A DNA stretch of 64,000 bases, taken from positions 1 through 64,000 of the forward strand of contig NZ_CYSR01000036.1 of NCBI RefSeq assembly GCF_001458395.1. Direction: 5' to 3'. Below, one piece after another: positions 2,214-61,380 of this stretch; positions within the stretch are counted from its first letter, which is position 1, and each line of letters opens with the position of its first letter. This DNA comes from Leisingera aquaemixtae (GTDB lineage Bacteria > Pseudomonadota > Alphaproteobacteria > Rhodobacterales > Rhodobacteraceae). Under the pieces are notes generated by a model that worked only from the letters and a program-made list of their open reading frames with translations, did no database searches and was not told the origin of the DNA. A program made the position numbers and the translations under genes.

Positions 2214-2972
2214 ATGCTGAACACGATCATTCATGGCTCTGCCACCGGAACCCCCCCGCTCCTGATTGCCCATGGCCTTTATGGCTCGGCCCGCAACTGG
2301 GGCGTCATCGCCAAGCGCCTGTCGGATGAGCGGCAGGTGGTTGCGGTGGACATGCGCAACCACGGCGACAGCCCCCGCAGGGACAGCCACACCTATCCGG
2401 AGCTGGCGGAGGATCTGGCGGAGGTGATCACGGCCCATGGCGGCCGGATGGATGTGATCGGCCATTCGATGGGCGGCAAGGCGGCGATGATGCTGGCGCT
2501 CAATCACCCCGAGGCGGTGCGCAAACTGGTGGTCGCCGACATCGCGCCGGTGGCCTATGGCCATACTCAGATCCAGTATATCCACGCGATGAAGTCATTG
2601 GACCTGGAGAGCATCGAGCGCCGCCCCGAGGCCGCCGCCCGGCTGGCTGAGGCCGGGGTGGACGCTGCGCTGCAGAGCTTTTTCACCCAGTCGCTGGACC
2701 TGCCGAACAAGCGCTGGAAGCTGAACCTGGACACGCTGGCAGAGCAGATGCCGAACATCATGTCCTTTCCGCAGACGGAAGCCGCCTGGGACGGCCCTGC
2801 GCTGTTCCTGTCAGGGTCGGACTCGGATTACGTGCTGCCGCAGCACCGCGGCGAAATCCGCGCGCGGTTCCCGAATGCCCGGTTTGCCAAGCTGCCCGGC
2901 GCGGGCCATTGGCTGCACGCCGAGAAGCCGCGGGAGTTCGAGGCCGCCGCGCGGGTGTTCCTCAACGCCTAG
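2214..2972 (+). CDS. Alpha/beta-fold hydrolase (YbfF/ABHD11-like esterase)
   Basis: A 252-residue alpha/beta hydrolase. Visible elements: oxyanion-hole HG at residues 20-21, D46-M-R-N-H-G loop, nucleophile elbow GHSMGG with Ser85, a late Asp in the LFLSGSDSDYV strand and the catalytic His in GAGHWLH near residue 228. The NHGDSP loop and overall length match the YbfF/ABHD11 group of short-acyl esterases; the substrate is unknown. ATG at 2214 is chosen over the ATG at 2172 because the fold begins at once after it. It overlaps the convergent gene at 2969 by 4 bp. Confidence 0.85.
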   Translation: MLNTIIHGSATGTPPLLIAHGLYGSARNWGVIAKRLSDERQVVAVDMRNHGDSPRRDSHTYPELAEDLAEVITAHGGRMDVIGHSMGGKAAMMLALNHPEAVRKLVVADIAPVAYGHTQIQYIHAMKSLDLESIERRPEAAARLAEAGVDAALQSFFTQSLDLPNKRWKLNLDTLAEQMPNIMSFPQTEAAWDGPALFLSGSDSDYVLPQHRGEIRARFPNARFAKLPGAGHWLHAEKPREFEAAARVFLNA

Positions 2973-3157
2973 GCGCCGCGGGCATAGAGCTGTCTTGCGA
3001 CCAGCCAGGCGACCGGCATCCCCAGAACGGCGCCGGCAGCAGCGGCGGCAAGGATCGCTTGTGTCGTGACCAGCCCTGCTGCAAGCACAGCGATCACCCC
3101 GGCACCTGCCAGGCTGCTGCCGATCAGCGAATACAGGATGGATGCAAGACGCAACAT
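2969..3157 (-). CDS. Small two-helix membrane protein
   Basis: A 62-residue protein made of two hydrophobic helices (about residues 5-28 and 33-54) separated by a short turn, with a basic C-terminus. Homologues of this length and pattern are common in Rhodobacterales and some database entries label them 'CTP synthetase'; nothing in the sequence supports that enzyme name. The 3' end overlaps the upstream hydrolase tail to tail by 4 bp. Confidence 0.65.
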   Translation of the reverse strand: MLRLASILYSLIGSSLAGAGVIAVLAAGLVTTQAILAAAAAGAVLGMPVAWLVARQLYARGA

Positions 3158-3253
3158 GGGCTTTCTCCTTTGCCTCTGACTGTTCTGTGCACAGGCATAG
3201 GGATTCGCGAATATATACGCCTTGATCCTGATCAGTTCGGCATTGATGCAATT

Positions 3254-4246
3254 CTAGCGCGTGTACATCTGCTTCTTAAAGGCCCGCGTCCGGTCCGTCG
3301 CCGCGGCGGAGCCGTCGTGGTAGGTGCCGAACCATTTGTCGAAGGGGATCTCCGAGGTGCCGTAGTTGCACTCGAAATAACGGTGGTGCAGCTGGTGGAA
3401 GAAATCGCCGGCCTTGGCCGCCTCTGTGTCCCCGGCGATCACCCGTTCGAAACCGGAATGCGACAGCACCGGGCTGACCTGCTGGAACATCGCATGGAAC
3501 ACCAGGTGCAGCGGGTGCGAGGGCACGATCAGGTGGATGAAATAGGTGGTGAAGTAGAGCAGGTTTTCATACCAGTGGTTGGAGATCCCTGACCACGGCC
3601 CGATGTTGACGTTGCGGTGGTGGACTGCATGCACGTGTTTATAGAGCCGCGGGTGATGCTCCAGCCGGTGCACCCAGTAGAAATGCAGGCCGGACCACAT
3701 CGGGATCAACAGCATCCAGACCACGCACCACACGGGGGCTTCGGCGAATGTCACGGTGGGCACCCAGCCATTGGCCATCAGCCAGTAGATGCCCCATTGA
3801 TAGACGGTGGCCACGGTGATGGCGCTGCCAAGGGTCCACCACATGTTGTCCAGCACCTGGTTCTTGAAGGTAAATGTGCCGTTGCCCCGCGACAGGTCGC
3901 GTGTGTCGAACTTTTTCTGCATACCCTGGCCCTTGCGGATGTAGAGCCACCAGTGCAGCCCCCCGGCCACCGCGGCCTGCGGCAGCAGGTTGGCAAGCCA
4001 GACCTGCAGCATCCAGCCGGGGCGGAAGGCGGCCATCTCTGCCAGCGGCGGCAGCAGCCAGGCGTAAAGGGCGAGCGCCAGCAGGAGGCAGACCGTCAGC
4101 GACGTGATCTCCATCCAGGCGCCGCGGTACCATCTGAGGACCGCCGCCGGGCGCGGCGGCCAGCTGAACAGCGGGTTGAGCGGCACCTGCCCCTTGGGGT
4201 GATAGTGCCAGCGGTCCGCCTCGCGGTCGGGGAGCGTGCCGTGCAT
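3254..4246 (-). CDS. Sterol desaturase / fatty acid hydroxylase superfamily protein
   Basis: A 330-residue membrane di-iron enzyme candidate. Four hydrophobic segments precede and separate the characteristic histidine clusters: HFYWVHRLEHH, HAVHHRN, a later H in the HPLHLVFH segment, and FHQLHHRYFECN. These ligands bind two irons in the superfamily that hydroxylates or desaturates lipid chains using O2. The lipid substrate cannot be told from sequence. It lies 23 bp downstream of the class II aldolase gene on the same strand, so the two are probably cotranscribed; the LysR gene at 5142 is the likely regulator. Confidence 0.85.
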   Translation of the reverse strand: MHGTLPDREADRWHYHPKGQVPLNPLFSWPPRPAAVLRWYRGAWMEITSLTVCLLLALALYAWLLPPLAEMAAFRPGWMLQVWLANLLPQAAVAGGLHWWLYIRKGQGMQKKFDTRDLSRGNGTFTFKNQVLDNMWWTLGSAITVATVYQWGIYWLMANGWVPTVTFAEAPVWCVVWMLLIPMWSGLHFYWVHRLEHHPRLYKHVHAVHHRNVNIGPWSGISNHWYENLLYFTTYFIHLIVPSHPLHLVFHAMFQQVSPVLSHSGFERVIAGDTEAAKAGDFFHQLHHRYFECNYGTSEIPFDKWFGTYHDGSAAATDRTRAFKKQMYTR

Positions 4247-4269
4247 CGGGTTGCCTCCTGTCCCAGGTT

Positions 4270-5028
4270 TCAGGTTGCGTAGTTGGAGCCCTCGTCGTCG
4301 AGGATCGCCTTCAGCTCCGCCAGGTGGCGTTCCGCCTGATCGGGGTAATCCTCCAGCTCCTGCGCGGTCTTCTCGGCGATCTCGTCGCTCAGCACCCGCA
4401 GTTCCCGGCCGGTTTGCAGGGCGCGGATATAGGTCTCGGCGGCGCGCTCGAAGTAATAGAGCCGGTTGAAGGTGTCCGCGACGCTATCGCCAATGACCAG
4501 CACGCCGTGGTTGCCCATGATCATCACCTTGACCTTGGGGTCCGTCAGCATCCCGGCGCAGCGCGCGCCCTCGTCTTCAAACGCCAGGCCGCCGAAATCA
4601 TTGTCGACCACATAGCGGCCATAGAAAGTGGCGGTGTTCTGGTCGATCGGCGGCAGGGTGCTGTCGGCAAGACAGGCGAGCACGGTGGCGTGGATGGAAT
4701 GCACATGCATGACGCAGCGCGCATGCGGGCACAGGCGGTGGATGGAGCCGTGCAGGCCCCAGGCGGTCGGGTCCGGCGCGCCGGGGCGCTCCATCGTCTT
4801 GGGGTCGTCCGCATCCAGCAGCAGGAGGCTGGATGCCTTGATGCGCCGGAAATGCGCCTGGTTCGGGTTCATCAGGAATTGGGTTCCGTCCTCGTTCACC
4901 GCCAGGCTGAAGTGGTTGGCGACGCCCTCATGCATGTGCAGCCGTTCGGTCCAGCGGAAGGCCGCGGCCATGTCGACGCGCTCCTGCCAATGGGTGAGGT
5001 TCGGGCTCAGCGCCGCTTGCGTGTTCAT
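4270..5028 (-). CDS. Class II aldolase/adducin family protein
   Basis: A 252-residue protein of the aldolase II/adducin fold. The Zn-binding pattern is visible as HVHSIHA in the middle of the protein and GNHGVLVIG with a third His further on; an early GVANHFSLAV stretch is also typical of the family. Members include sugar-phosphate aldolases, epimerases and decarboxylating enzymes, so the reaction is not determined. It is the first gene of a minus-strand pair with the sterol-desaturase gene and divergent from a LysR regulator, with a palindromic operator candidate between. Confidence 0.85.
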   Translation of the reverse strand: MNTQAALSPNLTHWQERVDMAAAFRWTERLHMHEGVANHFSLAVNEDGTQFLMNPNQAHFRRIKASSLLLLDADDPKTMERPGAPDPTAWGLHGSIHRLCPHARCVMHVHSIHATVLACLADSTLPPIDQNTATFYGRYVVDNDFGGLAFEDEGARCAGMLTDPKVKVMIMGNHGVLVIGDSVADTFNRLYYFERAAETYIRALQTGRELRVLSDEIAEKTAQELEDYPDQAERHLAELKAILDDEGSNYAT

Positions 5029-58530: not shown

Positions 58531-58555
58531 CAATTCCCGCCATTTTCAACGCAAG

Positions 58556-58579
58556 CGGCCCCCACCCGGGGGCCGTTTT
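58556..58579 (+). terminator. Terminator of thrS
   Basis: Perfect 8-bp stem CGGCCCCC (58556-58563) with GGGGGCCG (58568-58575), loop ACCC, then TTTT. Confidence 0.92.
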
Positions 58580-58717
58580 GTTTCTGCCCCCTCCCAAACC
58601 CCTTAAAACCATAGATTTGCGCATTTTTGACGGGCCGCTTCGGGTCACAGGCTCTGACGCGGATGTGAGACACGGCCTCGTGACTTAAACTCTGGAAAAC
58701 CTCGGGTTAGTGTTTGC

Positions 58718-58732
58718 GTGTCATCACGACAC
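58718..58732. promoter_or_regulatory. Inverted repeat upstream of the bufferin precursor gene
   Basis: GTGTC-N5-GACAC, 30 bp upstream of the start codon, in the 182-bp gap after the thrS terminator. Candidate operator for a metal- or stress-responsive regulator of the operon. Confidence 0.4.
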
Positions 58733-58761
58733 CGCATGTAGAACCGAAAGGAATTCACGAG

Positions 58762-59067
58762 ATGTCGAACACCGCAAAATCCCTGGCCGTTGCAGGTGCC
58801 GTTGCCGCCGCTCTGACCGCAGCGTCCACCATCCCCGCCGCCGCCGGCACCAAGGAAAAGTGCTACGGCGTGTCGCTGGCAGGCCAGAACGACTGCGCCG
58901 CAGGCCCCGGCACCACTTGCGCAGGCACCTCGACCGTCGATTACCAAGGCAACGCCTGGACCCTGGTTGACGCAGGCACCTGCGAAGGCATGGACCTGCC
59001 GGCCATGGCAGACGGCACCGAGCGCAACGGCTCTCTGGAGCCGCTGGAGCGTGACCTGCCGGCATAA
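58762..59067 (+). CDS. bufA: DUF2282 bufferin-type RiPP precursor peptide (BufA1-like)
   Basis: A 101-residue precursor. Residues 1-28 are a Sec signal peptide ([18 protein letters not shown], cleavage near AAA-G). The core has four Cys: C34 ([15 protein letters not shown]), C45, C53 ([10 protein letters not shown]) and C74 (AGTCEGM). This is the DUF2282 pattern of copper-buffering bufferins described in Caulobacter, where some Cys are modified by the DUF692 enzyme before export. It is the first gene of a four-gene operon with AAAGGAATT upstream. The dibasic-like KEK before C34 is conserved in the family. Confidence 0.88.
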
Positions 59068-59135
59068 TTGCCGCTCGAATTCAGGGGCGGGAGTGCGAAT
59101 TCCCCCCCCTTTTGCCCCCGGATACAGGCCCCGCC

Positions 59136-59990
59136 ATGCTTGACGCCGCTGCCCATGACACACTGCCCGCCGCCCCCGGCGTTGGCTACAAGCCGCAGCA
59201 TTTTGCCCAGATCACCGCGGGCTCCGGCGCCGTCAAATGGCTGGAAATCCACGCCGAAAACTACATGGGCGGCGGCGGCCGCCCGCTGGCGCAGCTGCGC
59301 CACCTCGCCGAACGCTTTGCCATGTCGGTGCATGGCGTCGGCCTCTCCATCGGCGGCGAAGGGCCGCTGGACGCGGATCACCTCGCCCGGCTCAAACACC
59401 TGGCAGGATGGCTGAACCCCGCCAGCTTCTCCGAGCATCTAGCCTGGTCCACCCACGACAGCCACTTTTACAACGACCTGCTGCCGCTGCCCTACACGGA
59501 CGCCAGCCTGCAGCGGATCTGCGATCATATCGACCAACTGCAAGAGACCATCGGGCGGCGGATGCTGCTGGAAAACCCCTCCAGCTACCTCGCCTTCGCC
59601 GAAAGCACCTGGGCAGAGCCGGAGTTCCTGGCGGAAATCTCCCGCCGAACCGGCTGCGGGCTGCTGTTGGATGTCAATAACGTCTTTGTCTCCGCCAGCA
59701 ATCTGGAGTTCTCGCCGCAGGGCTACATCGACGCCTTCCCGCTGGACAAGGTGGGTGAAATCCATCTGGGCGGTCATGACGAGGATGACGACGGCCAGGG
59801 CCGCCCGCTGCTGATCGACAGCCACGGGCGCGAAGTGGCGGATCCGGTCTGGGCGCTCTTGGACTATACGCTGGCGAAGTCCGGCCCCAGGCCGGTGCTG
59901 ATCGAATGGGACAACGACGTGCCGGACTGGCCGGTGCTGGAAGCAGAGGCCGCCCGCGCCGCAACCGCGCTGGAGCGCATTCCGGCATGA
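59136..59990 (+). CDS. bufB: DUF692 multinuclear non-heme iron oxidase (MNIO, BufB/MbnB-like)
   Basis: A 284-residue TIM-barrel MNIO. The family's metal residues are visible as EIHAENYMG, SVHGVGLSIGG, FSEHLAWS, LLENPSSYL, LLLDVNNVFVSASN and EIHLGGHDEDD. MNIO enzymes oxidise precursor cysteines with O2; relatives act on methanobactin (MbnB), 3-thiaglutamate (TglH) and bufferins. ATG 59136 is used; a TTG at 59112 would add eight residues. The stop overlaps the next start by four bases (ATGA). Confidence 0.92.
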   Translation: MLDAAAHDTLPAAPGVGYKPQHFAQITAGSGAVKWLEIHAENYMGGGGRPLAQLRHLAERFAMSVHGVGLSIGGEGPLDADHLARLKHLAGWLNPASFSEHLAWSTHDSHFYNDLLPLPYTDASLQRICDHIDQLQETIGRRMLLENPSSYLAFAESTWAEPEFLAEISRRTGCGLLLDVNNVFVSASNLEFSPQGYIDAFPLDKVGEIHLGGHDEDDDGQGRPLLIDSHGREVADPVWALLDYTLAKSGPRPVLIEWDNDVPDWPVLEAEAARAATALERIPA

Positions 59991-60742
59991 GTGTCAGCCA
60001 GGCAGACTTCACCCGCGCCATGATGGATGCGGGCCAGCCGGTGCCGGACGGGCTGACCGATCACCTCGGCCAGCCTGCGGGCCGCCGGTTCAGCGTCTAC
60101 CGCAACAATGTCGCGGTCTCGCTGACCGAGGCGATGCACAGCGCCTTCCCGGTGATTTCGAAACTCCTGGGCAAGCAGAACATGGACGGGCTGGCAGGCA
60201 TCTACCTGCGCCGCCACCCGCCGTCGTCGCCGCTGATGATGTTCTACGGCGCAGAGTTCCCGACTTTTCTGGAAGGCATGGAGCAGCTGAAGCATCTGGG
60301 CTACCTCGGCGATGTGGCCCGGCTGGAGCTGGCGCTGCGCCGCGCCTACCACGCCGCCGATGCCGCCCCCATCGCGCCGGAGGCGCTTGGCGCGCTGCCG
60401 CCGGATGCGCTGCTGGACACGCGGCTGGAACTGGCGCCTGCGGTGCAGGTGCTGCGCTCGCCCTGGCCCCTTCACGCCATCTGGCGCTACAACACCGAAG
60501 ACGGCGCGCCCAAGCCCGCGGCACAGGCCGAGGACGTGCTGATCACCCGCCCCGAATTCGACCCCATTCCCCAGGTCCTGCCGCCCGCCGGCGCGGTCTG
60601 GATCAGCGCCCTGATGGCGGGCGCCACCATCGGCGCGGCGATGGAACAGGCCGCCGCCGAAAACGAAGCATTCGACCTGGGCGCCACCCTGGCCCTGCTG
60701 TTGCAGGGCGGTGCGGTCACAGGACTGAACAGCAAAGGGTAA
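59987..60742 (+). CDS. bufC: DUF2063 (putative DNA-binding-domain) RiPP recognition partner BufC-like
   Basis: A 251-residue protein. The N-terminal DUF2063 domain (about residues 3-100; QADFTRAMMDAG, RRFSVYRNNVAVSLTEAMHS, FPVISKLLG, DGLAGIYLRRHPP) is the standard partner of DUF692 enzymes, thought to bring the precursor to the oxidase rather than to bind DNA. Translationally coupled to bufB by an ATGA overlap. Confidence 0.92.
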   Translation: MSVSQADFTRAMMDAGQPVPDGLTDHLGQPAGRRFSVYRNNVAVSLTEAMHSAFPVISKLLGKQNMDGLAGIYLRRHPPSSPLMMFYGAEFPTFLEGMEQLKHLGYLGDVARLELALRRAYHAADAAPIAPEALGALPPDALLDTRLELAPAVQVLRSPWPLHAIWRYNTEDGAPKPAAQAEDVLITRPEFDPIPQVLPPAGAVWISALMAGATIGAAMEQAAAENEAFDLGATLALLLQGGAVTGLNSKG

Positions 60743-60746
60743 GACC

Positions 60747-61310
60747 ATGCACGCACTAGTCTCCATTCACGACGCCGTTTTCCGCCAGGTTGAAAGGGCC
60801 GGCAACTGGCTGCTGCCGCTTGCGGCGCGCTTTGTCTTCGCCTCAACGCTGCTGCTCTATTTCTGGAATTCCGGCCTGACCAAGCTGGGCGACGGCATCT
60901 TCGGCCTGTTCAGCCCCTCAATCGGCGCCTACAGCCAGATTTTCCCAAAGCAGCTGGAGGCGGCAGGCTATGACGTGGACCAGCTGGGTGTCTTTCACTG
61001 GGCTGTGGCCCTGGCAGGCACCTACGCCGAGTTCATCCTGCCTCTGCTGATCGTGATCGGGCTTCTGACCCGGCTGGCCTCGCTGGGCATGATCGGCTTT
61101 GTGGCCGTGCAGTCGCTGACCGACATCTATGGCCACGGGGCCACCGATGACAAAACCCTTGGCGCGCTGTTTGACCGTTTCCCCGATGCGGTAATCCTCG
61201 ATCAGCGGCTGCTCTGGATCTTTCTGCTGTCCGTCCTGGTGGTCAAGGGCGCGGGCGCCCTGTCCGTGGACACCCTGCTGCGGCACCGGATGCAACCTGC
61301 CATCGCCTGA
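60747..61310 (+). CDS. DoxX-family membrane protein of the bufferin operon
   Basis: A 187-residue protein with four hydrophobic helices (about residues 22-45, 82-102, 108-125 and 145-165). FVFASTLLLYFWNSGLTKL and YAEFILPLLIVIGLLTRLASL are DoxX-like. DoxX proteins often accompany DUF692/DUF2063 genes, possibly as a quinone-linked or redox membrane partner. It starts four bases after bufC and is the last gene before a bidirectional terminator. Confidence 0.87.
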   Translation: MHALVSIHDAVFRQVERAGNWLLPLAARFVFASTLLLYFWNSGLTKLGDGIFGLFSPSIGAYSQIFPKQLEAAGYDVDQLGVFHWAVALAGTYAEFILPLLIVIGLLTRLASLGMIGFVAVQSLTDIYGHGATDDKTLGALFDRFPDAVILDQRLLWIFLLSVLVVKGAGALSVDTLLRHRMQPAIA

Positions 61311-61327
61311 CGCTCTGGCGCAGAAAC

Positions 61328-61364
61328 AAAAAAGGCGCCCTGCCCCCGGCAGCGGCGCCTTTTT
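61328..61364. terminator. Bidirectional terminator after the bufferin operon
   Basis: Perfect 11-bp stem AAAAAGGCGCC (61329-61339) with GGCGCCTTTTT (61354-61364), enclosing a small CTGCC/GGCAG inner hairpin; A and T tracts serve both strands. Confidence 0.92.
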
Positions 61365-61380
61365 CGTTTCCCGGCAAGCC

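Follow-up and report, generated by a model that had tools for sequence, protein, structure and literature searches.

A Buf1-type bufferin operon linked to thrS in Leisingera aquaemixtae, its conserved upstream box, and an enzyme-free two-cysteine branch of DUF2282 peptides

The 64,000-nucleotide stretch of Leisingera aquaemixtae DNA analysed here (hereafter the window, located on contig C36 of the 4.6 Mb, 40-contig genome that was searched) carries on its plus strand four genes, bufA to bufD, which by their content and order make up a canonical bufferin operon of the Buf1 type, well conserved and unexceptional among those already published. The gene bufA (58762-59067) encodes a DUF2282 precursor peptide of 101 residues with cysteines at positions 34, 45, 53 and 74 (Pfam PF10048, E 2.6e-24); bufB (59136-59990) a maturase of 284 residues from the family of multinuclear non-heme iron-dependent oxidative (MNIO) enzymes, formerly DUF692 (PF05114, MbnB_TglH_ChrH, 1.3e-100); bufC (59987-60742) a DUF2063 partner protein of 251 residues (PF09836, 5.2e-23); and bufD (60747-61310) a DoxX-family membrane protein of 187 residues (PF07681, 4.5e-7). 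All four matches exceed the curated cut-offs, all four reading frames are intact, and DUF2282, MNIO and DUF2063 each have a single match in the genome. A preliminary description had read these genes, at this place and on this strand, as an operon for a ribosomally synthesized and post-translationally modified peptide (RiPP) of the bufferin type and had tied this to a DUF2282 match of the precursor; in the hidden Markov model (HMM) search PF10048 scored 85.4 bits (cut-off 22.4), and the identity is borne out by every feature that can be tested on sequence, namely the Pfam and NCBIfam matches, the gene content and order, and the cysteine pattern. The tight gene order that it also described holds for bufB and bufC, which overlap in an ATGA (59987-59990), and for bufC and bufD, which are separated by 4 nucleotides, yet not throughout, since bufA and bufB lie 68 nucleotides apart with a conserved stem-loop in the gap.

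The four cysteines named in the preliminary description are the only ones in BufA. Translation from the ATG at 58762 starts with what is plausibly a Sec signal peptide, judged by eye from K6, a hydrophobic run and AAA before G29. Cysteine spacing and the DoxX partner, which had been singled out for comparison with known bufferins, turned out to be standard in both respects. The window shares the spacing C-x10-C-x7-C-x20-C with 103 of 104 precursors of the family (those from loci with a called start; L179 was left out), three of which have an extra cysteine in the leader, and its spacing is thus the standard one; the exception, L162 from genome G150, has two cysteines. Likewise, Buf1 precursors are reported to contain four conserved cysteines, and the genes for precursor, MNIO, DUF2063 protein and DoxX protein are described as the core of the cluster (PMC12452194). 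Searching the Protein Data Bank (PDB) by phmmer with BufA yielded one match (E 0.16), which we take as chance.

BufB is recognized by the NCBIfam model of bufferin maturases, MNIO_BufB, with 367.9 bits (cut-off 310), so that a bufferin-type MNIO adjoins the precursor gene, and its best PDB match is 3bww (E 1.3e-42), followed by the DUF692 family protein of 8hci and by MbnB. The residues H66, E146, D179, N182, H210, D228, H230, E257 and D259 do not vary among the 104 aligned proteins, 102 of which also have H214; we take these candidate active-site residues to include the iron ligands. D259 aligns with the aspartate of an ERDF sequence in 3bww. For FonB, an aspartate followed by phenylalanine (Asp249, Phe250) has been proposed as the catalytic base (PMC12668002), and D259 may occupy the same position, a comparison made without an alignment to FonB. 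The DUF2063 domain of BufC, the hallmark of a PME-type 1 partner, spans residues 5-95, and the length of the protein (251 residues) would fit a partner whose C-terminal half is a RiPP recognition element. Searching the PDB by phmmer with BufC returned no match at E 1 or below; a profile built from 25 BufC sequences gave a weak match (E 0.0061, positions 38-150) to 8hci_C, a chain annotated as 'RiPP Recognition protein' and partner of an MNIO.

With a probability of roughly 0.85 we regard the four genes as a canonical Buf1 operon that works by the published mechanism. BufA would be made with its Sec-type leader; in the cytoplasm BufB, aided by BufC, would oxidize the central residues C45 and C53 to 5-thiooxazoles; after export, the outer residues C34 and C74 would form a disulfide, and the thiooxazoles would hold copper in the periplasm, with BufD as a presumed accessory membrane protein. 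In Buf1, the central cysteines are reported to be modified and the outer pair to be disulfide-bonded (PMC12452194), and the Caulobacter operon, whose genes follow the same order, is described as copper-induced, a sigF mutant being copper-sensitive (PMC8224329). What we observed directly are gene content and order, the cysteine pattern, the conserved candidate active-site residues, deep conservation, and the loss of the central pair in peptides with no enzyme gene nearby; thiooxazole chemistry, disulfide and copper role are carried over from the literature, so that modification of BufA and its binding of metal are put forward by analogy. None of our results appears to speak against the published chemistry. 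Several points do, however, weigh against the reading as a whole. The NCBIfam model for BufA2 precursors (NF050166) gives BufA 18.7 bits against a cut-off of 60, as is to be expected of a precursor of the Buf1 type, and the models HvfC (49.6 of 142 bits) and HvfX (25.5 of 80) stay below their cut-offs as well. The AlphaFold models of BufA (6 sequences; mean predicted local distance difference test score, pLDDT, 59.7) and BufC (3 sequences; pLDDT 40.1) were too poor and were left unused. NrsF (PF06532), the Caulobacter regulator, has no match in the L. aquaemixtae genome although the Caulobacter control was positive, and copper induction is therefore not to be assumed here. Finally, a copper response was not seen for an MNIO/DUF2063 thiooxazole cluster of Microbulbifer, as far as that report describes it (PMC12538549).

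Among the known systems, the Buf1 operon of Caulobacter vibrioides (CCNA_03363-03366, or CC3254-CC3257) is the closest counterpart, having these four genes in identical order, with DoxX in last place, and four conserved cysteines (PMC3511200, PMC8224329, PMC12452194). It is described as being controlled by sigma-F and NrsF via the motif GTAACC-N16-CGAA (PMC3511200). In contrast, the operon studied here is linked to thrS, belongs to a genome with no NrsF match and is preceded by a different conserved box, the sigma-F-type pattern GTAAC-N16-18-CGAA occurring in none of 21 sequences (the window and 20 genus members) within 250 nucleotides upstream of bufA. The gold-induced genes (GIG) operons of Cupriavidus metallidurans and Legionella pneumophila similarly comprise DUF2282, DUF692, DUF2063 and DoxX genes (PMC5413113) and have been equated with bufferin clusters (PMC12452194). 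The Legionella operon is reported to reside on an integrative conjugative element (PMC5413113), whereas ours is chromosomal with a conserved thrS linkage. Captophorins (fontiphorin, oxazolin, gonophorin) share with it an MNIO and a DUF2063-type partner, which are reported to make 5-thiooxazoles (PMC12668002); for Buf2, the source describes the modification as not identified and thought to be similar (PMC12452194). Unlike these, the precursor of the window is a DUF2282 peptide and neither an EGKCG-repeat nor a six-cysteine Buf2-type peptide.

The operon is deeply conserved. All 21 genomes of the genus have DUF2282, and thrS together with bufABCD was found in each of the 20 fetched genus members (in one, thrS is cut by the contig end), with identities to the window of 92-99% for bufA, 86-93% for bufB and 78-92% for bufC. 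Among the named records, Tritonibacter scottomollicae is 84% identical in bufA, 80% in bufB, 69% in bufC, 78% in bufD and 86% in thrS, and Tritonibacter mobilis matches BufA residues 32-101 at 94%. DUF2282 occurs in 106 of 149 genomes of the family and MNIO in 105, the two lists differing only in G150. In two genomes (G146 and G082) three further MNIO matches lie on contigs that lack the bufferin locus, and two of these are distant (E 4.0e-42 and 1.5e-38). One locus was fetched from each of the 105 other family genomes with DUF2282, and its content was assigned by tblastn with the window proteins (E 1e-3), a threshold that a diverged DoxX or BufC can escape. On this basis thrS adjoins bufA in 78 of the 105 loci: 75 read thrS-bufABCD, two have thrS and two bufA copies, and one reads thrS-bufAB where the fetched stretch stops at a contig end. 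The loci without thrS comprise 16 with bufABCD, nine with bufABC, one with bufAB and one with bufA alone. In L079 and L140 a tandem bufA precedes a single bufBCD set. Complete operons are also found on plasmids. A conjugative IncF plasmid of Escherichia coli (p78-Pyelo_2, CP048869.1) carries the DUF2282-DUF692-DUF2063-DoxX series behind a TetR-type regulator gene; it is the only record opened of the 60 Escherichia and 17 Klebsiella plasmid records that the window BufA matched by tblastn at E 0.01.

The published division of roles between the cysteines gains support from a branch of DUF2282 peptides that lack an enzyme. In Rhodobacteraceae bacterium DSL-40 (G150; loci L162/L181), whose genome is rated 100% complete and in which MNIO is absent genome-wide, the DUF2282 peptide has kept the outer cysteine pair while both central cysteines are gone. 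A second two-cysteine peptide is encoded in an alphaproteobacterial metagenome-assembled genome (L182), where no BufB match was found in the 9-kb locus by tblastn at E 1e-3 or better. A profile of these two matched 291 of 390 genomes of the order and ranked next to them a third, from G389; among the 30 listed loci of the 291 matching genomes, G150 and G389 have two cysteines and 28 have four. The G389 gene directly follows thrS, the common place, and within 18 kb no bufB, bufC or bufD match was found (best E 0.2), nor does the locus have the CGTGA box described below on either strand. In a tree of 107 peptides the three fall into one clade (99/93), next to which, with weak support (87/69), stands the thrS-linked four-cysteine peptide L094; the tree rests on 72 columns and has many unresolved forks and long end branches. 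A simple reading would be a single loss of the enzyme genes together with the two target cysteines. The clade appears to have lost bufBCD and the modified cysteines and to have kept the outer pair, the leader and the C-terminal tail, and because three enzyme-less cases drop the presumed target pair and keep the presumed disulfide pair, they independently support the published split of cysteine roles, bearing in mind that these are three sequences of apparently one origin, with absence of MNIO genome-wide for G150 and at the level of the locus for the other two. If BufB and BufC read the leader, signal peptides of enzyme-free precursors should be less conserved. Leader identity to the window was 0.26-0.36 in the three two-cysteine peptides, and values just as low (0.22, 0.34, 0.37) occur among four-cysteine precursors with little core identity. 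Near the two-cysteine gene, L182 encodes a zinc peptidase, a VTT-domain protein and DsbB (2701-4966; Pfam), and L162 has similar-looking reading frames beside its gene (2244-4655), viewed without an HMM scan. A DsbB-type gene near a peptide reduced to one cysteine pair may reflect chance or function.

The second point emerging from the comparison concerns regulation. Alignment of the window with 20 genus members reveals a candidate promoter or operator block upstream of bufA (58654-58731, plus strand) in which CTGACGC, GTGAGACACGGCCTCGTGACTTAA, GGTTAG and TGTCAWCACGACACC are largely invariant. In the window it consists of CTGACGC (58654-58660), the box GTGAGACACGGCCTCGTGACTT (58665-58686), which is present in all 21 sequences, GGGTTAG (58704-58710), possibly a -10 element, and TGTCATCACGACA (58719-58731); the assignment of -35 and -10 is tentative and, like the promoter role, deduced from the alignment. 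The 22-base box (with up to 3 mismatches) and the relaxed form GTGANNCACNNNNNNGTGANT each match the L. aquaemixtae genome once, upstream of bufA. Across the family, GTG-N3-CAC-N6-GTGA precedes 50 of 78 thrS-linked operons (0.05 in dinucleotide shuffles) and 2 of 26 others, and the distribution of GTAAC-N16-18-CGAA is the reverse, with 1 of 78 thrS-linked and 8 of 26 other operons. NrsF was found in 22 of 149 family genomes (21 above the cut-off) and within 6 kb of bufA in 12, 11 of which have no thrS linkage. In the twelfth genome, G030, NrsF separates thrS from bufA, and its operon is also the sole thrS-linked one with the GTAAC pattern. A plasmid of Paracoccus liaowanqingii (NZ_CP040764.1) carries bufABCD followed, as annotated, by genes for a thioredoxin-family protein, a sigma-70 factor and a DUF1109 (NrsF-type) protein, which corresponds to the sigma-F-type arrangement, here plasmid-borne in a member of the Rhodobacterales. 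We infer that the L. aquaemixtae operon is transcribed from a promoter other than that of sigma-F.

It might be hypothesized that most thrS-linked operons of the family are run by an undescribed, largely dedicated regulator acting through the box CTGACGC-CGTGA-N2-CAC-N6-GTGA instead of sigma-F and NrsF and, at the same time, that DUF2282 has a second, enzyme-free role, the disulfide-only peptide being functional in itself, as the retention of the outer pair, leader and C-terminal tail would imply. Jointly, these two proposals stand at somewhat less than even odds. Among the matches listed in the literature searches (titles and abstract starts) we found none on bufferin regulation in Rhodobacteraceae and none on DUF2282 peptides without the central cysteines, which is weak evidence of absence. 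A view competing with the first proposal takes the CGTGA box not for a metal-responsive operator but for a promoter element of the usual sort that goes with this site on the chromosome, or for the target of a regulator that also acts elsewhere. No gene for a regulator was seen in linkage with the box, and as thrS lies beside bufA in most loci, related sites may share the box by descent; the pattern as written is also missing from 28 of the 78 thrS-linked operons. In the 149 family genomes the relaxed pattern has 54 matches, 16 of which lie elsewhere than upstream of bufA, above the 5 that the reversed pattern gives in all. Yet the other 38 lie within 600 nucleotides upstream of the DUF2282 stretch of bufA, the near form of the box has its one match in the L. 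aquaemixtae genome at this place, and the box persists from genus to genus whereas most flanking columns of the family consensus vary. Since 38 of 54 matches are upstream of bufA and 16 elsewhere, the box seems to be mostly, perhaps not only, a feature of the bufferin operon, and we consider the competing view rather unlikely.

The absence of NrsF and the presence of another promoter box also mean that the inducer may differ, and the same peptide chemistry could serve another ligand or stress, such as gold, cadmium, chromate, or oxidative or sulfur stress with DoxX as the key player. Homologous operons are reported to respond to both gold and copper in Legionella (PMC5413113) and to chromate and cadmium in Caulobacter (PMC3511200), and the Microbulbifer cluster mentioned above would fit as well. 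The products of such clusters are, however, said to bind copper generally (PMC12668002), and Caulobacter Buf1 is reported to enhance growth in excess copper (PMC12452194). We regard a different ligand as improbable and retain copper as the presumed target of the Buf1 operon.

The two strong terminators that the preliminary description had seen on either side of the operon hold up: the folds of 58540-58590 (z -3.89) and 61305-61365 (z -4.68) were each equalled by none of 200 dinucleotide shuffles. The first contains the putative terminator of the upstream thrS (58553-58578, plus strand; 11-pair stem with 8 GC pairs), the second that 3' of bufD (61329-61364, plus strand), which can also fold on the other strand (z -3.45). 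The terminator scan lists neither the plus-strand terminator after bufD nor the stem-loop after bufA; terminators and stem-loop were assessed instead by folding against shuffles and by a separate hairpin score. The stem-loop after bufA (59084-59113, plus strand) is followed by a run of four T and has one C-C mismatch, at C59105, a position which is G in the 20 other genus members; its CCCGCCC arm is shared by all genus sequences but that of the window (20 of 21). For the window stretch 59060-59125 the fold has only a modest advantage over shuffles (z -2.0), 10 of 200 of which do as well. Across the family the hairpin is kept though its sequence differs, beating all 20 shuffles in 90 of 103 loci, whereas six control windows gave 4, 4, 2, 6, 12 and 12 of 103; an earlier run had given 86 of 104 loci. 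A general role as intrinsic terminator is unsupported, as the nine bases that follow the stem include at least four T in only 23 of 104 loci. For the same reason, we favour stabilization of the RNA or partial attenuation over plain termination. The stem-loop might set the precursor above the levels of the enzymes.

The last gene of the operon is less constant than the others. Whereas bufD is 81-98% identical to the window in 16 of 20 genus members, it is only 50-61% identical in four (L055, L060, L061 and L068), in which bufA, bufB and bufC remain at 84-99%; this suggests that DoxX was exchanged in these four and that the last gene may swap on its own. A reading of the operon as a decayed or silent remnant that persists by chance, to which the C-C mismatch seen in none of the 20 relatives and the diverged DoxX might point, is highly improbable in view of the four intact frames, the conservation of bufA, bufB and bufC across the genus and the presence of DUF2282 in each of its genomes.

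The operon of L. aquaemixtae is in itself standard and adds little to what has been published; it is the comparisons that yield two testable points, the upstream box and the two-cysteine branch. Many bufferin operons of the family appear to do without the Caulobacter regulator and share a box that is found mostly at one place, so that the protein binding it could be looked for. The two-cysteine peptides point to an unmodified form of the DUF2282 peptide and may represent nature's own cysteine experiment.

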